From assembly GCF_000744095.1 (NCBI RefSeq), contig NZ_JQLI01000008.1, positions 2,852,001 to 2,916,000 of the forward strand: a stretch of DNA of 64,000 nucleotides, written 5' to 3'. Source of the DNA: Cupriavidus necator A5-1 (GTDB lineage: Bacteria; Pseudomonadota; Gammaproteobacteria; Burkholderiales; Burkholderiaceae). Shown here one piece after another: positions 15,177 to 22,330 of the stretch. Below the pieces are notes generated by a model. It saw only the letters and a list, made by a program, of their open reading frames with translations. It was not told the origin of the DNA and ran no database searches. Made by a program: the position numbers and the translations under genes. Each line of letters starts with the position of its first letter. The stretch's first letter is position 1.

Positions 15177-16541
15177 TCATAGGTCGAGCACCAGTTCATC
15201 ACTTCGACATCCCGATACGCACACCGTCATCAGGTTGGCGGCGCGCTCTGCCTGCGTCAGGACTGCATCACGATGGTCTGGCGTGCCGCGCAGCACGGTG
15301 GTCTTGCATGCACCGCAGTTGCCCGCCTTGCATCCGTGAGGGACCGCCACGCCAGCGTCGAGCAGCGTGTCAAGGATGGTATTGCCCGCGCGCACATCCA
15401 GCGTTTTTCCCGTGCGCGCCAGCGCGACCCGGAACTCGGCCCTGGCATCTGCGGCGGCCGGCTTGCCTGCCGCCGCGAATCGCTCTATGTGCACTTGCTG
15501 ATAGTGCAGCGCCTCGCAGTGCGACACGAAGGCATCGAGCACGGGCGAGGGGCCACAGGCATAGAAGTGGGTATCGGCGCTTCGCCCGGACAGCAGCGCC
15601 TTCAGGTCGGGCGGTCCGCCCTGCTCGTCATCGAAATGCCAGGTGACCGGCACGCCGATGGCCTCAATCTCCGCAACGAATGCGGTCGCCTTGCGCGAAC
15701 GCGCAACGTAGATCAGCTCCGCGGAGCGGCCGAGCTGGCGCAGCCGGCGCAACATGCCCAGGATCGGCGTGATGCCGATGCCGCCCGCTACAAAGACGGA
15801 ATGCGCCGCCCCCTCCTGCAACGGAAAGTTGTTCCGTGGGCGCGAGATCTCGATGGCAGCACCAACACGCAGTTGCTCGTGCACATACACGGAGCCTCCC
15901 CGGCTCGCACGGTCCTTCAGCACGCCAATCTGGTAGCGACCCGGCGCGGTCCCACAGAGGGAATAGCTTCGCACCATGCCGCTCGGCAAGTAGAGGTCAA
16001 TGTGGGCGCCGGGCTCATAGGCTGGCAGGTCAGCGCCATCCGGCGACGTCAGCTCGACGCTGATGACGCCATCTGCCTCATGGCGGAGCTGTCGCACGCA
16101 GACGCTGAGTCTTTCGGTCTGTGGCACTCGCTTGCGAGGCGGGTGATAGATGACAAGCATCTCCAGAGGCTCATCCCCGAGCGTGCGGAAAGAGTGCGGC
16201 TGCCCCGCCGAGATCGGGCTGACGGAGCCGGCGTGCACTTCCCTGACCTCATCCTCGACCGTCACCTCGCCACGGCCGGATAGCACATAGAACACGTGCG
16301 CCCACGGTTCGACGTGTGTTGGCGACGATCCGCCCGGCCCCACCGTGGTCAGCTCGATGCTGTATGCATCGTTGGTGAACTCCGGCGGGATCACGGTCTT
16401 GTATCCCGCCTTCCGGATGAACAGGCCAGTCAGGGGCGTCCATGGCCTGTCGTCAACATGCCAGGTGACGGGCTCCCGGCCATTGCCGTCGTTGAATGCT
16501 TGATGCGATGTCGATGCTTCCATGACTTGGTCTTGACGCAT
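15177..16541 (-). CDS. Fusion of a cupin domain to a phthalate-dioxygenase-reductase-type flavin/iron-sulfur reductase
   Basis: 454 residues from ATG 16541 with GAGGAAAAC as ribosome binding site. Residues about 30-135 are a cupin (GPGGSSPTHVEPWAHVFYVL, then SGRGEVTVEDE and PISAGQPHSFRTLGDEPLEM). From about 145 comes the reductase: flavin site RSYSLCG, NAD(P) site VAGGIGITPILGMLRRL, YACGPSPVLDAF, and a C-terminal plant-type [2Fe-2S] domain with CKAGNCGACKT plus a distant Cys (TVCVSG). Family IA/PDR reductases pass electrons from NADH to Rieske oxygenases. No oxygenase is encoded nearby. It lies 17 bases downstream of a Bug receptor in the same orientation. Confidence 0.88.
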   Translation of the reverse strand: MRQDQVMEASTSHQAFNDGNGREPVTWHVDDRPWTPLTGLFIRKAGYKTVIPPEFTNDAYSIELTTVGPGGSSPTHVEPWAHVFYVLSGRGEVTVEDEVREVHAGSVSPISAGQPHSFRTLGDEPLEMLVIYHPPRKRVPQTERLSVCVRQLRHEADGVISVELTSPDGADLPAYEPGAHIDLYLPSGMVRSYSLCGTAPGRYQIGVLKDRASRGGSVYVHEQLRVGAAIEISRPRNNFPLQEGAAHSVFVAGGIGITPILGMLRRLRQLGRSAELIYVARSRKATAFVAEIEAIGVPVTWHFDDEQGGPPDLKALLSGRSADTHFYACGPSPVLDAFVSHCEALHYQQVHIERFAAAGKPAAADARAEFRVALARTGKTLDVRAGNTILDTLLDAGVAVPHGCKAGNCGACKTTVLRGTPDHRDAVLTQAERAANLMTVCVSGCRSDELVLDL

Positions 16542-16558: not shown

Positions 16559-17584
16559 TTATTCGGCATGTACGCCACTGGACTGCGCGACCCTGGCCCA
16601 GCGCAGCCGCTCGGATTCGATGAAGCTCGCGAAGCTGCCGGATGAGCCTTGCTCCACGCGAAAGCCATTCCTTGCGAGCGTCGCCTGGACTTCCGTCATC
16701 CCCAGCACCCTGTTCAGGTCGCCATTCAGGCGTGCGACCAGCGGTGCTGGCGTCCGAGCCGGGGCAACGAGACCAAACCACGCACGCAACTCAAAAGCCT
16801 TGAGTCCGGCAATCCCCGATTCCCCGATGGTGGGAATCTCCGCCAGCATCGGCGAGCGGTTCGGCCCCGTGACGGCGATCGCACGCACCTTGCCGCTGCG
16901 CACCAGCGCCGCCGCCGCCGGCATGGCGGCGAACATGACCGACACATGCCCGCCCATGACGTCGGCCAACGCCGGCGATACGCCCTTGTACGGCACGTGC
17001 CGCAGCTCCACCCCAGCGTCGGACTGGAACAGTTCCATACCCAGGTGGTGCTGGCTGCCGACGCCGCTGGAAGCGTAGGTCATCGCTGGCTGCCGGTTGT
17101 GAGCGAGCTTCAGCAGTTCCGCGACATTGCGCACGGGCAGGGCCGGGTCCGCGACCAGGACGAAGTCCACGTGGGCCGCCAGGCCTATCGGCGCAAAGTC
17201 GCGCCGGGGGTCATAAGGCATGTGTGCGTAGATTGACGGGTTGATCGCCAGCGGCCCGTCGGTGCCCATCAGCAGCGTATAGCCGTCCGGCTTGGCCCGG
17301 ACCACGACGCCCGCAGCGATATTTCCGCCCGCGCCTGGCCGGTTCTCGACCACTACCGGCTGGTTCCACAGCACGCCGAGCTGCTGTGCCAGGATGCGCG
17401 CGAGCTGGTCGGGACTTCCGCCAGGGGGAAACGGCACCACGATCGTGACGGGACGGTTCGGGTAGCCGCCGTTGTCCCCTGCCGCACTGGCGTCGCGTGG
17501 CAGGACACAGGTCAGCGCAACACAAGCAATCAACATCTGCAACAGCAGGCGCGGCCACGATCGTGGCACCGGGAAGCGAAGCAT
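16559..17584 (-). CDS. Bug/TctC-family periplasmic receptor
   Basis: 341 residues from ATG 17584, AGGAG upstream. Signal peptide about 1-33 (LLLQMLIACVALTCVLPRDASA). Mature protein shows GGYPNRPVTIVVPFPPGGSPD, VENRPGAGGN, PDGYTLLMG, YASSGVGSQHHLGMELF and HVPYKG. First gene of a two-gene operon with the cupin/reductase fusion and divergent, across 95 bases, from the HTH/citrate-synthase-like gene. The ligand is probably a substrate of the unknown oxygenase system served by the reductase, by context. Confidence 0.92.
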   Translation of the reverse strand: MLRFPVPRSWPRLLLQMLIACVALTCVLPRDASAAGDNGGYPNRPVTIVVPFPPGGSPDQLARILAQQLGVLWNQPVVVENRPGAGGNIAAGVVVRAKPDGYTLLMGTDGPLAINPSIYAHMPYDPRRDFAPIGLAAHVDFVLVADPALPVRNVAELLKLAHNRQPAMTYASSGVGSQHHLGMELFQSDAGVELRHVPYKGVSPALADVMGGHVSVMFAAMPAAAALVRSGKVRAIAVTGPNRSPMLAEIPTIGESGIAGLKAFELRAWFGLVAPARTPAPLVARLNGDLNRVLGMTEVQATLARNGFRVEQGSSGSFASFIESERLRWARVAQSSGVHAE

Positions 17585-17679
17585 GGCGAGTCTCCTGCAT
17601 CTGGTTTCCAACAGCGGTGGATTGACTCTATGATTCGTCGTGATGTTGCGCAATATTGATTCTTACGATCAATCTCATC

Positions 17680-18963
17680 ATGACTTTCCCTGACTACCTG
17701 GACCGCGAAGCCGTCATCTCGGCACTCGGCATCAAGCCTGCAACGCTCTACGCGTACGTCAGCCGGGGCCTGTTGCGCCGGGTGCGCAGCCAGGATGGCC
17801 GGCACAGCCTGTATCTGCGCGAAGACGTGGAACGCTTGTCGGCGCGACACCGGGGCGTGCCGCGGCGGGACGAAGCGGCCGCCAGCTCGATGCGCTGGGG
17901 TGCCCCGGTCGTCAGTACCGGCATCACATGCATTGATGCGGGCGGGCCCACGTACCGCGGCCGCAGCGCCTTCGAACTGGCCAGGGGGGACATATCGTTC
18001 GAGGCAGTCGTCCATCTGCTGCTGACCGGTGGCTGGCAGCCGGCCATGGATGCATGGCCGGCCATCGACACGCCCGACGACGTGCGACGCCGGCTCAATA
18101 CGGAATTGAAGGCGCTGGATGCAGCGGATCTGAGCAAGGTGCTGGCAACCGCCGTCCTGTGGCTGGGCATGGACGCCCGCGGGCAGGACGAGCTGAGCGG
18201 CGCCTCCGGTCAGGACGCGCGCCTGATCATCCAGACGCTGGCGGGATGCTTTGGCGGGCTGGCGACGCCGGGCAGGTTCGTGGAACGCAAGCCGGACGAA
18301 TCCATCGCCGCGCTGGTGCTTCGCGCCTCCGGGTGCAGTACTTCGGCGCAGGCCCGGTCCGCGGTCAACCAGGCACTGATCGTACTGGCCGATCACGAAC
18401 TGGCCACTGCTTCGTTCGTGTCGCGAATCACGGCGTCCACGAACAGCGACCTGTTCTGCTGCGTGGCCGCCGCGCTGTGCGCCCACGCGGGTTCATCCAT
18501 GGCGGCCTCGGCCGCGAGCATCGACGACAAGGTCTTCACGCCGCTGACACGCCGCAACCAGAGCGAGATGCTCACACTGGTGCGCACCCGCGGCACTACG
18601 CTGTTCGGCTTCAACCACCCGCTCTACCCGCGTGGCGACCCGCGCGCCGAGTTCCTGCTGACGCTGGCCGCGTCTCTTCCTTCGGCCGATCCCAAGGTGC
18701 AAGACTTGCTGGCATTCCTGCGGCTGGCGCGCGAGGACGGGATCCTGCCGGGCATCGCCGTGGCGCTGGCCGTGCTGGCCCGTGTGCTCGGCCTGCCGTC
18801 GAGCGGGGCGCCCGCGCTCTGGGTCCTGAGCCGGTCTGCCGGCTGGATCGCCCACGCACTCGAGCAGCGCACGCAGGGGTTCATGCTGCGGCCGCGCGCG
18901 AAGTTCATTAGTACTGCGGATACCGTGCCTTTGGCCGCCACCATGCCCGATCTACCTGCTTGA
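17680..18963 (+). CDS. HTH protein with a citrate-synthase-like body, possibly non-catalytic
   Basis: 427 residues from ATG 17680 (MTFPDYLDREAVISALGI). Residues 5-60 form a MerR/excisionase-like helix-turn-helix (LGIKPATLYAYVSRGLLRRV, then RSLYLREDVERL region). From about 75 the citrate synthase fold follows: GPTYRGRSAFELA, ADHELATASF (first catalytic His), GFNHPLYPRGDPR (second His), SAGWIAHALEQR and LRPRAKF. Where family members carry N-(V/I)-D-F with the catalytic Asp, this protein reads GIAVALAVLARVLGL, so Asp appears to be Ala. The DNA-binding domain and divergent position suggest a metabolite-sensing regulator of the Bug/cupin-reductase operon. I cannot exclude residual enzyme activity. 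Confidence 0.85.
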   Translation: MTFPDYLDREAVISALGIKPATLYAYVSRGLLRRVRSQDGRHSLYLREDVERLSARHRGVPRRDEAAASSMRWGAPVVSTGITCIDAGGPTYRGRSAFELARGDISFEAVVHLLLTGGWQPAMDAWPAIDTPDDVRRRLNTELKALDAADLSKVLATAVLWLGMDARGQDELSGASGQDARLIIQTLAGCFGGLATPGRFVERKPDESIAALVLRASGCSTSAQARSAVNQALIVLADHELATASFVSRITASTNSDLFCCVAAALCAHAGSSMAASAASIDDKVFTPLTRRNQSEMLTLVRTRGTTLFGFNHPLYPRGDPRAEFLLTLAASLPSADPKVQDLLAFLRLAREDGILPGIAVALAVLARVLGLPSSGAPALWVLSRSAGWIAHALEQRTQGFMLRPRAKFISTADTVPLAATMPDLPA

Positions 18964-19003: not shown

Positions 19004-21007
19004 TCACTCCATCCCAATGCGCCTGGCGCCTTCGCGGAACAGGGCTTCGCCTTCGGGATCGAACGGGAAAGTCATCAGAAATTCGGCAAGGCTGTAGCGT
19101 GGGGCGATCTTGCGGATGGCAGCGGCTTGGGATCGCGCCTGTTCCGGGGAGTCAGCCAGCGCGAGACAGCAGGCAGCAATCGCGTGGATGTGCGGAAAGG
19201 CATTGGGCCGCGCGGCTGCCTTGACGGCCCAGCCGGCTGCTTCCTCGAACTGTCCGAGACGGACCAGCGCCATCGCTCGCGTGGCGAGCATGCCGAAAAG
19301 CATGGGATCGAATGGACTCAACTGCCGTGAGAGGTCCGAAGAAACGATGGCAGCCTGCGCGTCGCCGGAGATCGAGCGGACGAATGAAAGGTTGTAGTGG
19401 CCCAACGCGAAGTTCGGGCTGAGATCGATGGACTGCTCAAGTTCGGCGACGGACTCTTCGGGGCGGCCCCGTAGCCAGAGCGCACGACCCATCGCCCAGT
19501 GCGCCGCAGGGTCGCGGTCGTCGACCATGAGGCCCTGCGCCGCGGCGTCGTAGGCCTTGTCGATTTCCGGCCCGCGCTTCTCCCAGTTCTGGAACGCGTC
19601 CTGGAAGTGCGTGAAGGAGAGTCCGGCGTAGGCACGCGAGAAGGTTGGATCGAGCCGTAGCGCAGTCTGGAAGAAATGGCGGGCCATCTCGTTGTCTGCC
19701 CTGCGATACCGGTACATGTGCCACAGGCCGCAGTGGTATGCCTCCCACGCATCGAGGGAGCTCGGCGGCTTGAGGATGGCGCGGTTGCGCTCGAGGATCT
19801 CGATCTCGCTGGCGATGGAAGCGACGATCCGGTTGCCGACCTCTTCCAGCACGAGGAAGGCGTCGTCCAGTTTATGGTGGAAGGTGTCCCCCCAGACGAT
19901 CCGGGCGCTGCGCGTCTCGGCGAGCTCGACGGTCACCGTGAGGCGCCCGTTCCGCGTGCTTACCGATCCGCCCACGACGTAGTCGACATCCAGGGTCCGG
20001 CCAGCTTCTTCCGCGCCGACGTGCCGCTCGTGCAGTGCGAACACCGTCCCTTGCGCGATGACAAACAGGCTGCGCAGTTTGGCGAGCCGCGTGATGACAT
20101 CGTGCGCGAGCGCATCGGCCGCCCCGCCGCGGACGTGGACCTCGGTGGAAAGGTCGACGAACGGCATGACCGCGATGGAGCCGTGCCGGGGAATCCCTGC
20201 GGCGACCCCGGAGACTTGGGCGACCTCTGCGACCTCTGCGCGGCCTTCGAACCCGACGACCGTCGCTGTCACGGCCGACCGCCAGGCGTTGCGGATCGGC
20301 CTGCTATCCAGGCCTTCGGCCTCGAACAGCCTGGCGGTCGCCGCCACATGCTCCTCCCCTTCGCGAATGCGGCCTTGCCGGGCGAGCGTGGCGAGAATGG
20401 TCGCGTGGACATGCTGGTCGAATGGCGCGAGTTCGCGCCACTTGTCCAGATACCCAAACGTCTCTTCGCCGGCAGCGCTCTTCGCGAGATGCTCCAGCAG
20501 CGCGGTATGGCAAGCACGGAAACGCCGGCGTTGCGCGGTGTGCCACGCGCTGAACACCGGACAGCGGGCAAGGTCGAGACCGTCCAGGAAATCCCCTTCG
20601 AACAGCATCGCAATGCTTCGCTGCCGCTCCGGGCTCAGTGCCGTGACGCCTTCCTCGAGCGCATGCGCGATCTCGAGCGCATCGACGAAGCCATCGGACA
20701 GGTCGAGCCAGATCGTGTCTCCGCTGGTCTTCAGGCGCTGCCGTTTGCCCGAGTCGACAAGTCTCCTGATCCGGCTGAGGCACCAGCGCAACTCGCCGCG
20801 TGGATCGTTGGGCACCTCCCACAGCAACTCGCAGAGATGGCTGCGCAAGACCGGGCGTGGCGCAAGCGCCAGATAAGCGAGGAGCGCGCGGACCTTCCTC
20901 GACGCCGGCAGCGACAGGGCAACGCCATGCTGCCGGACGCGAAGTGGCCCAAGCATCTGAATCTGCACCGGAGGGAGGCCGGATTCGGGCGGCCGATCTG
21001 ATTCCAC
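19004..21007 (-). CDS. BTAD/SARP-type regulator with TolB-like and TPR domains
   Basis: About 667 residues if GTG 21007 is used; a longer reading to ATG 21127 would overlap the divergent MFS gene by 36 bases, so the shorter start is preferred. Near residues 15-110 is a winged helix typical of SARP/BTAD proteins (MLGPLRVRQHGVALSLPA, then LAYLALAP and LRWCLSRIRRL). A BTAD helical domain follows to about 240. Residues 275-410 resemble the TolB-like domain found in CadC-type and cyclase-linked regulators (SIAVMPFVDLS, DYVVGGSVSTRNGRL). The remainder is TPR repeats (LDPTFSRAYAGLS, AAHWAMGRALWLRG, FALGHYNLSFV). No kinase or membrane segment is seen. Likely regulator of the divergent carrier/hydrolase genes. 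Confidence 0.82.
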   Translation of the reverse strand: MESDRPPESGLPPVQIQMLGPLRVRQHGVALSLPASRKVRALLAYLALAPRPVLRSHLCELLWEVPNDPRGELRWCLSRIRRLVDSGKRQRLKTSGDTIWLDLSDGFVDALEIAHALEEGVTALSPERQRSIAMLFEGDFLDGLDLARCPVFSAWHTAQRRRFRACHTALLEHLAKSAAGEETFGYLDKWRELAPFDQHVHATILATLARQGRIREGEEHVAATARLFEAEGLDSRPIRNAWRSAVTATVVGFEGRAEVAEVAQVSGVAAGIPRHGSIAVMPFVDLSTEVHVRGGAADALAHDVITRLAKLRSLFVIAQGTVFALHERHVGAEEAGRTLDVDYVVGGSVSTRNGRLTVTVELAETRSARIVWGDTFHHKLDDAFLVLEEVGNRIVASIASEIEILERNRAILKPPSSLDAWEAYHCGLWHMYRYRRADNEMARHFFQTALRLDPTFSRAYAGLSFTHFQDAFQNWEKRGPEIDKAYDAAAQGLMVDDRDPAAHWAMGRALWLRGRPEESVAELEQSIDLSPNFALGHYNLSFVRSISGDAQAAIVSSDLSRQLSPFDPMLFGMLATRAMALVRLGQFEEAAGWAVKAAARPNAFPHIHAIAACCLALADSPEQARSQAAAIRKIAPRYSLAEFLMTFPFDPEGEALFREGARRIGME

Positions 21008-21091
21008 GGCAATTTCCACGCCGCCTACCACGCGCGCGGCAAAAGATCGGGACTGGGACGACCTGGAACGGACGGAAAAGGAGAAGCAGTC

Positions 21092-22330
21092 ATGGACACC
21101 ACCGTGCACGTGCGCAGCCGCAGTCATCTAACCATCGCGCTCGCCGCGGGAGCAGTCTTCGCGCTTGGGCTCGGCCTGCGCCAGGCGCAGCCGCTCTTCA
21201 TCAGCTTACTCAATTCCCATACCGGCGTCGGGTACGCCACCGTCAGCCTTGCCTTTGGCGTCTCACAGCTCATGTGGGGCGTGGCGCAGCCGGTGGCCGG
21301 CGCTGTCGCGGACCGCTGGGGACCGCGTCGGGTGATGATTGCAGGCGCAATCCTCTTTGCCGCCGCGATCGCAGCGACGCCGATCTCGGACAATGCCTTC
21401 ATGCTCATGCTGCTGATCGGCGTGGCGGGCGCCGCCGGCGCTGGCGCGATCGGCCCGGCAATGCTCATGTCGGCAGCGAATCGCCTGATCCCCGAGGCGA
21501 AGCGCGCGGTGGCGAGCGGCATCGTCAATGCGGGCGGCTCGGTCGGCCAGTTCACCATCCTGCCCCTCACCCAGTTGCTCATCGGGACCGCCGGCTGGCA
21601 GCAGGCAATGGTGCTCCTCGGCGTGGCGGGACTGGCCGCGGTCCCGGCAATCATGGTCGTCACGCGCCCTTCGCCAGCGCCCTCCCTTCCTGGTGTGGCC
21701 GGCGGGTGCACGATCGGCGTGGCATTGCGCGGGGCGCTCCACGATCCGGGCTTCCTCTTGCTCAACGCCGGCTTCTTCGCCTGCGGATTCCACGTCGCTT
21801 TCATCTCGACGCATCTGCCTGGCGTGGTGGCGCTTTGTGGAATGCCCGCCACAGTCAGCGCCTGGTCACTGTCCATCATCGGGCTGTTCAACATCCTGGG
21901 GAGCCTGTCGATTGGCAAGGCCATCCAGACGGTCTCCATGAAATACGCGCTGGCTTCCCTCTACCTGGCGCGGGCGGTGCTGATCCTCGCGTTCTTCCTG
22001 GCCCCGAAGACGCCGATGGCCTTCGCCCTGTTCGCCGCCGGACTCGGCTTCACGTACCTGTCGACCGTCCCGCCGACCATCGGCCTGGTCGCAAGACTGC
22101 GGGGCGCACGCTACCTCGCCACGCTCTTCGGCATCGTCATGCTCTCGCACCAGATCGGCGGTTTCCTCGGCGCCTGGCTCGGCGGAAAGGCCTTCGAGGC
22201 AACCCGAAGCTATGACTGGATGTGGCTGGCAGACATCGCCCTTTGTCTGTTTGCCGCCGCCCTTCACTTGCCGATCCGAGAGGTTCGCCCCGTACCTGTC
22301 GCTGCCAGTCAAATGCGCCAACCCTCCTGA
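21092..22330 (+). CDS. MFS transporter
   Basis: 412 residues with 12 predicted membrane segments. ATG 21092 has GGAGAAG upstream. Segment 2-3 loop shows the MFS signature ADRWGPRRVM; segments include AAGAVFALGLGLRQAQPLFI and GPAMLMSAANRLIP. The pattern of a short N-terminus, a conserved Q in helix 1 and RL-rich helix ends fits the monocarboxylate/oxalate-like or CynX-like carriers of proteobacteria, but the substrate cannot be read. Its stop is 10 bases before the alpha/beta hydrolase gene start, so they form an operon divergent from the BTAD regulator. Confidence 0.9.
   Translation: MDTTVHVRSRSHLTIALAAGAVFALGLGLRQAQPLFISLLNSHTGVGYATVSLAFGVSQLMWGVAQPVAGAVADRWGPRRVMIAGAILFAAAIAATPISDNAFMLMLLIGVAGAAGAGAIGPAMLMSAANRLIPEAKRAVASGIVNAGGSVGQFTILPLTQLLIGTAGWQQAMVLLGVAGLAAVPAIMVVTRPSPAPSLPGVAGGCTIGVALRGALHDPGFLLLNAGFFACGFHVAFISTHLPGVVALCGMPATVSAWSLSIIGLFNILGSLSIGKAIQTVSMKYALASLYLARAVLILAFFLAPKTPMAFALFAAGLGFTYLSTVPPTIGLVARLRGARYLATLFGIVMLSHQIGGFLGAWLGGKAFEATRSYDWMWLADIALCLFAAALHLPIREVRPVPVAASQMRQPS

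Follow-up and report, generated by a model that had tools for sequence, protein, structure and literature searches.

The gene at 17680..18963 (+) of the window, i.e. the whole 64 000-nucleotide stretch of Cupriavidus necator A5-1 DNA analysed here, probably encodes a pseudoenzyme that works as a one-component transcription factor, with a dead citrate synthase as its effector domain, and that would control the divergent genes for a TctC-type binding protein and a reductase by sensing an organic acid. An earlier sequence-only reading had proposed for this gene that a citrate synthase had been turned into a regulator that senses a metabolite; this view is now supported by a single clade in which the catalytic residues were lost, by the retention of the arginines of the substrate clamp, by a conserved operator and by catabolic neighbours.

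Gene and domain organization

The product of this intact ORF (427 amino acids) contains a helix-turn-helix (HTH) domain at residues 12–54 (17713..17841, +), delimited by Pfam and alignment, and a citrate synthase domain at residues 73–406 (17896..18897, +), delimited by Pfam (Citrate_synt, PF00285; E = 4.5e-43) and structural matches. Pfam support for the HTH is marginal, with HTH_17 scoring 22.9 bits, below its cut-off of 27, and MerR_1 scoring 21.6 bits, exactly its cut-off of 21.6, and the TLY-YVSRG motif of this domain is invariant in a 63-row alignment. The protein thus has the N-terminal TLY-YVSRG HTH joined to PF00285 by which we recognize the HTH-citrate synthase (HTH-CS) family. Structural matching with Foldseek assigns it the fold of citrate synthases, the HTH part of the model being barely covered. 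It scores far under every NCBIfam citrate-synthase and citryl-CoA-lyase cut-off, on which ground an identity as citryl-CoA lyase was rejected. The same genome also encodes one GltA and two PrpC-like genes. A 79%-identical orthologue was found at locus L008, where the predicted operator described below is kept.

Active-site residues

Alignment shows that two of the three catalytic residues are gone from this protein and that the residues gripping the substrate are kept. With the genome's own GltA as the reference, the active-site series His/His/His/Arg/Asp/Arg/Arg corresponds to His239/Met274/His313/Arg322/Ala360/Arg385/Arg406. Residue frequencies were taken from a homology search in which 7999 candidates were scored and 3457 reached E <= 0.001, using the 120 best listed proteins, our protein included. 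The loss of the catalytic Asp, already suspected in the sequence-only reading, is upheld: Ala360 (18757..18759, +) stands where PNVDF has its D, and none of the 120 best-scoring proteins has Asp at this position, which is occupied by Ala (74), Glu (39), Pro (3), Ser (2), Val (1) or Gly (1). That reading had also counted both catalytic histidines as present, which holds for the second catalytic or substrate His of GFNHP (His313; 18616..18618, +; kept in 117 of the 120 best listed) but not for the first, since the His of ADHELATAS (His239; 18394..18396, +) is the substrate-binding one and the catalytic His of GPxHGG is replaced by Met274 (18499..18501, +). His239 is the equivalent of pig H238, a substrate-binding His; among the 120 best listed relatives its position holds His in 92 and Asn in 25.

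A catalytic role for the ADHELATAS His was rejected on its gap-free spacing to the GPxHGG position, as the GPAHGG His of the genome's own GltA and Met274 each lie 35 residues past the ADHE His with no gap between. The GPxHGG His is likewise paired with Met274 when the protein is aligned to 3o8j independently with HMMER. In all 64 sequences of a mixed set that carry the GxxHG motif, its Gly lies 32 residues past the ADHE His, and a Gly is found at that distance in 113 of the 120 best listed relatives. The position of the first catalytic His is taken by Thr (58), Val (21), Ile (21), Met (8), Ala (7) and others, and by His in none of these 120. The corrected count of two lost catalytic residues out of three strengthens the earlier reading of the protein as a regulator.

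The three arginines of the substrate clamp are kept almost without exception, Arg322 (18643..18645, +) and Arg385 (18832..18834, +) each in 119 and Arg406 (18895..18897, +) in all of the 120 best listed proteins, in which the median top-residue frequency over 336 domain columns is 0.53 and only 4–7% of the columns reach the frequency of these arginines. Arg406 corresponds to the clamp Arg that, in citrate synthases, is supplied across the dimer interface by the partner subunit; as the interface-crossing Arg and the most conserved residue of the clamp, it fits a retained dimer. The Asn242- and Asn373-type positions, like both catalysts, are variable in the clade that has lost the triad. With both acid–base catalysts and the Asn of N-V-D lost and the carboxylate clamp kept, an organic acid would be a likelier ligand than an acyl-CoA, so that the earlier guess of an acyl-CoA or oxaloacetate-like product has been moved towards an organic acid.

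Two HTH-less citrate synthases that face an HTH-CS gene in Caulobacter (L061, 8823-10067, -; L052, 8795-9976, -) read TNVEFY, with Glu at the Asp position. The NVEF of the L061 partner suggests that an Asp-to-Glu change alone need not kill the enzyme.

Distribution of HTH-citrate synthases and single loss of the triad

From a scan of genome contigs, the best 80 of 587 relatives were taken; this set was chosen on the motifs TLY[AST]YVSRG and GWxAHxEQR, the conservation of which can therefore not be judged from it. Together with loci from plasmids, from other genomes and from the window, 102 loci were classed, of which 33 had lost the triad, 66 had kept it and three were mixed (L020, L064 and L070, included in neither count). 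Two duplicates, L107 on the contig of L008 and L112 on the contig of L012, were dropped before neighbours were counted, leaving 31 triad-lost loci, and L063 was left out of the tree and of the operator set. HTH-citrate synthases mostly keep the catalytic triad among the loci fetched.

A quick tree with 105 rows gathered all 37 triad-lost ones into a single clade (SH-aLRT 100). A more careful tree of 61 rows, built with the catalytic columns masked, again placed all 30 of its triad-lost rows in one clade (100/100), and every one of 200 bootstrap trees recovered it. The triad-kept rows nearest to this clade are mostly myxococcal or deltaproteobacterial, with a weak placement (68/59). The topology indicates that the triad was lost once, in a betaproteobacterial and essentially Burkholderiales clade; all named triad-lost loci belong to the Burkholderiales except L014, which is labelled just as a betaproteobacterium.

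The triad-lost clade is rare, with matches at E <= 1e-60 in four of 60 relative genomes (own included) and in two of 35 other genomes of the same genus. Across the order, nine of 399 genomes (own included) had a match at E <= 1e-45, one of which (G289, L118) is triad-kept. One genome (G135) held four matches at this latter threshold (L098, L104, L105 and L106), two of them approximately 7 kb apart on one contig. The annotation of an Acidovorax plasmid splits the relative there (L095, 6007-7229) into two ORFs that overlap and lie next to IS elements. When plasmids were searched at the DNA level with the locus studied here, no place covered 80% of it.

A predicted operator in the divergent intergenic gap

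The gene is separated from its divergent neighbour by a 95-bp gap (17585..17679), as given by the ORF positions and by the TctC start that we chose at 17584. This gap contains a predicted operator, CAATATTGATTCTTACGATCAAT (17651..17673, +), an inverted repeat with the half-sites ATTGAT (17655-17660) and ATCAAT (17668-17673) separated by N7, which ends seven bases before the HTH-CS start codon and lies 67 bases from the divergent start. It matches with no mismatch the consensus CAAT-n-TTGAT-N6/7-ATCAAT (in fuller form TCAAT-n-TTGAT-N6/7-ATCAATA) found before HTH-CS genes of both the triad-kept and the triad-lost type. Within the 9.74-Mb genome it is the sole match at up to two mismatches, and the reversed pattern has no match at this tolerance. 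At up to three mismatches the window holds two matches, both on the 17651-17673 palindrome, against 0.41 expected, a number that is not striking by count alone since six of 100 shuffles reach two. A promoter scan returned one weak sigma-70-like match (17605-17634), which does not span 17651-17673 (MerR-type regulators have their site inside a 19–20 bp promoter spacer).

Motif discovery by EM scored 1003 on 65 triad-kept upstream regions, compared with 92 and 90 for two shuffles run with fewer restarts, and 254 on 27 triad-lost upstream regions, compared with 84–88 for four shuffles, also with fewer restarts. These 27 come from the 31 triad-lost loci, L016, L095, L108 and L116 being out of the operator work because the HTH motif and 60 upstream bases were required. 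The matrix trained on triad-kept promoters scored 18 or more in 14 of the 27 triad-lost promoters and lower in the other 13, and reached this score in none of 5400 shuffles and in 35 of 5400 stretches drawn at random from these loci, which may hold true sites; since the loci are related, neither these counts nor those of neighbours given below are independent. The reverse transfer was poor, the triad-lost-trained matrix recovering five of the 65 triad-kept promoters.

With a near variant of the triad-kept matrix, the top-scoring site within the entire locus lay at the promoter in 16 of the 27 triad-lost loci, two of these sites being weak (L115, 13.0; L114, 9.7). In three further loci (L017, L018 and L109) the best-site coordinate test overlooked a strong site at the promoter. 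The site of L120 is the same as that of L092, and L012, L013 and L015 carry an operator-like site just beyond the gene end. The best match of L119 lies elsewhere in the locus, L122 has a variant recognized by eye alone, and L014 and L117 have no good site in the sequence stretch scanned.

When 60 congeneric genomes were searched at up to one mismatch, 38 had a match, with 46 sites listed (own included) compared with one for the control. This search tests the specificity of the pattern and is not a fresh discovery, as the pattern had been derived from HTH-CS promoters that include one of this genus (L058). Sixteen of the 20 congeneric sites examined (own included) lay just upstream of an HTH-CS gene, and the other four (L125, L135, L136 and L137) had no adjoining HTH-CS gene. 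The site of L125 (1501-1523), which differs from the operator by one mismatch, is flanked by ORFs that we read as aroA and cmk and has no HTH-CS in its vicinity; it recurs in several congeneric genomes.

Divergent genes and neighbourhoods

The divergent gene (16559..17584, -; start codon chosen here), a predicted target, encodes a TctC/Bug-type solute-binding protein according to Pfam and to comparison with solved chains, of which Bug27 is the closest (3.2e-63) and a terephthalate-binding protein is near (1e-60). Behind it lies a second predicted target (15177..16541, -; start codon again chosen here) encoding a cupin fused to a phthalate-dioxygenase-reductase-like protein, closest to the P450-fused reductase 6laa (3.8e-59) and then to phthalate dioxygenase reductase 2pia (2.5e-58). 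The divergent catabolic operon of the earlier reading is thus partly recovered, as these two genes are divergent but no complete pathway is seen there, and seed profiles found no ring-hydroxylating alpha subunit in the 21 kb around 15177-16541. The likenesses of the TctC and reductase proteins hint at an aromatic or related acid as substrate without fixing it. With at least 150 TctC matches in the 9.74-Mb genome, against five ring-hydroxylating alpha subunits, a TctC gene next door carries little weight by itself; it is the predicted operator that ties this TctC gene to the regulator. On the other side of the gene, 19004-21127 (-) encodes a 707-amino-acid TPR-repeat protein weakly similar to a putative peptide modification system cyclase and to HilA-type regulators.

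Catabolic markers, i.e. TctC, oxygenase parts or a VanB reductase within 10 kb, occurred at 21 of 31 triad-lost but only three of 66 triad-kept loci. Among the triad-lost loci, TctC was found at 15, a ring-hydroxylating alpha subunit at 12 and a VanB-type reductase at 10, and the markers searched for were absent from 10 of the 31. Six triad-lost loci had supplied seeds for the neighbour search; without the seed loci the markers were present at 15 of 25 triad-lost versus three of 66 triad-kept loci, and versus one of the 12 triad-kept loci from Burkholderiales (Fisher 0.004). Conversely, a divergent adjoining second citrate synthase was present at 36 of 66 triad-kept loci (35 of 65 without the seed locus) and at none of the 31 triad-lost loci, a contrast of which lineage may explain part, as such a second citrate synthase is absent from all 12 triad-kept loci of the Burkholderiales.

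Pfam tallies covered 80 of the 116 neighbours picked around triad-lost genes and 79 of the 135 picked around triad-kept genes, many short or doubtful ORFs being omitted by eye. They gave TctC (10), MFS (8), TPP enzymes (6), class II aldolase (5), cupin (4) and Rieske (3) for the 80 triad-lost neighbours, and citrate synthase (12), GntR (11), CoA-transferase III (9) and TctC (1) for the 79 triad-kept ones. At the annotated plasmid loci, Rieske oxygenases, VanB reductases, ferredoxins and PdxA-like, HpaI or TPP enzymes lie near the gene.

Proposed mechanism and alternatives

We infer a regulator in which two N-terminal HTH heads, carried on a citrate-synthase-type dimer, would bind the inverted repeat at 17651-17673 and thereby control the divergent TctC and reductase genes as well as the regulator's own gene. 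The old oxaloacetate site, made of the three arginines and the GFNHP His, would now be purely ligand-binding, the His-to-Met and Asp-to-Ala changes presumably having stopped condensation and perhaps made room for another acid. The ligand would most likely be the acid imported by the neighbouring binding protein or one derived from it, perhaps aromatic, and its binding may close the two-domain fold in the way that oxaloacetate closes citrate synthase, changing the fit of the HTH heads on DNA.

A regulator of the same kind could instead still sense oxaloacetate, citrate or acetyl-CoA and report central carbon status to the catabolic genes, a rather unlikely reading that draws on the retained clamp arginines and GFNHP His and on an operator shared with triad-kept relatives, 36 of 66 of which lie opposite a gene for citrate synthase, but one that sits poorly with the variability of the Asn242- and Asn373-type positions and of both catalysts in the triad-lost clade and with neighbours that are pathway-specific catabolic genes. 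We think it very unlikely that the protein is a bifunctional or altered enzyme that catalyses some CoA or acid reaction through other residues and also regulates: neither a conserved acid nor a conserved His has taken the place of the lost pair (His at 274 in none of the 120 best listed, the Asp position mostly Ala) and the scores are far below the NCBIfam cut-offs, even if the GFNHP His is kept and the Glu of the HTH-less L061 partner indicates that a single change need not be fatal.

Two further explanations are scarcely credible and were rejected. A plain isozyme of citrate synthase whose N-terminal extension is spurious would agree with the fold and with the name citrate synthase that the relatives bear in their source databases, but the catalytic residues are lost, HTH and operator are conserved, and the genome already has GltA and two PrpC-like genes. 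A decaying pseudogene would suit the patchy occurrence within the genus (two of 35 other genomes at E <= 1e-60) but not an intact ORF with a 79%-identical orthologue that retains the operator, nor clamp residues kept across the 120 best listed proteins.

Relation to known systems

Our preferred reading, the acid-sensing pseudoenzyme regulator, can be set in a wider frame to which we give an even chance: HTH-citrate synthases would be a widespread, undescribed class of transcription factors with the citrate-synthase fold as sensor, of which the Burkholderiales enzyme died once, its vacated acid/base positions allowing the clamp to be retuned to aromatic or other pathway acids while the operator was carried from citrate synthase genes to catabolic operons. 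Enzyme-derived domains joined to an HTH as sensors are known with other folds, as in MocR/PdxR, BirA, PutA and PurR of Bacillus subtilis, so that reuse of an enzyme fold in a regulator is not new in itself; the novelty would lie in the citrate-synthase fold, which is not known among the enzyme-fold regulators or trigger enzymes. The literature searched, which was open-licence and left most subscription papers outside, contained no citrate-synthase-fold regulator and no description of triad-kept HTH-citrate synthases as regulators.

If the preferred reading is right, the citrate-synthase fold joins the enzyme folds that now serve transcription factors as ligand domains, and the stages of the change can still be seen, from an enzyme, through an enzyme with an HTH facing a partner enzyme gene, to a dead enzyme with an HTH facing catabolic genes. 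Many Burkholderiales genes named citrate synthase may then be regulators, and the triad-lost HTH-citrate synthases would be candidate sensors for organic or aromatic acids. The predicted operator is both short and conserved and has hardly any other match in the genome, which makes regulon and ligand directly testable.

The protein shares its fold with citrate and 2-methylcitrate synthases (PF00285; PrpC 6s6f and 3o8j; GltA) but differs in having an N-terminal HTH and an upstream operator and in lacking the first catalytic His and the Asp. Triad-kept HTH-citrate synthases, such as those of the Agrobacterium fabrum pAt plasmid (L096) and of Caulobacter (L061), have the same layout and the same type of operator but keep His/His/Asp and often face an HTH-less citrate synthase, whereas our gene faces TctC and reductase genes.

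Caulobacter CitA, a citrate synthase, has a regulatory role for which its catalysis is dispensable, but unlike the protein studied here it is an active enzyme of the GltA type that acts on the cell cycle (PMC7083601). According to passages of the same source, CitB of C. crescentus complements an Escherichia coli gltA mutant and CitC, whose gene number adjoins that of CitB, does not, the two paralogues having 30% and 33% identity to E. coli GltA (PMC7083601). These passages mention no HTH in CitA, CitB or CitC. In a related Caulobacter, the HTH-less partner and the HTH protein are 29% and 33% (over partial length) identical to the GltA of the window genome, and from this resemblance to the published values CitC is probably a triad-kept HTH-citrate synthase.
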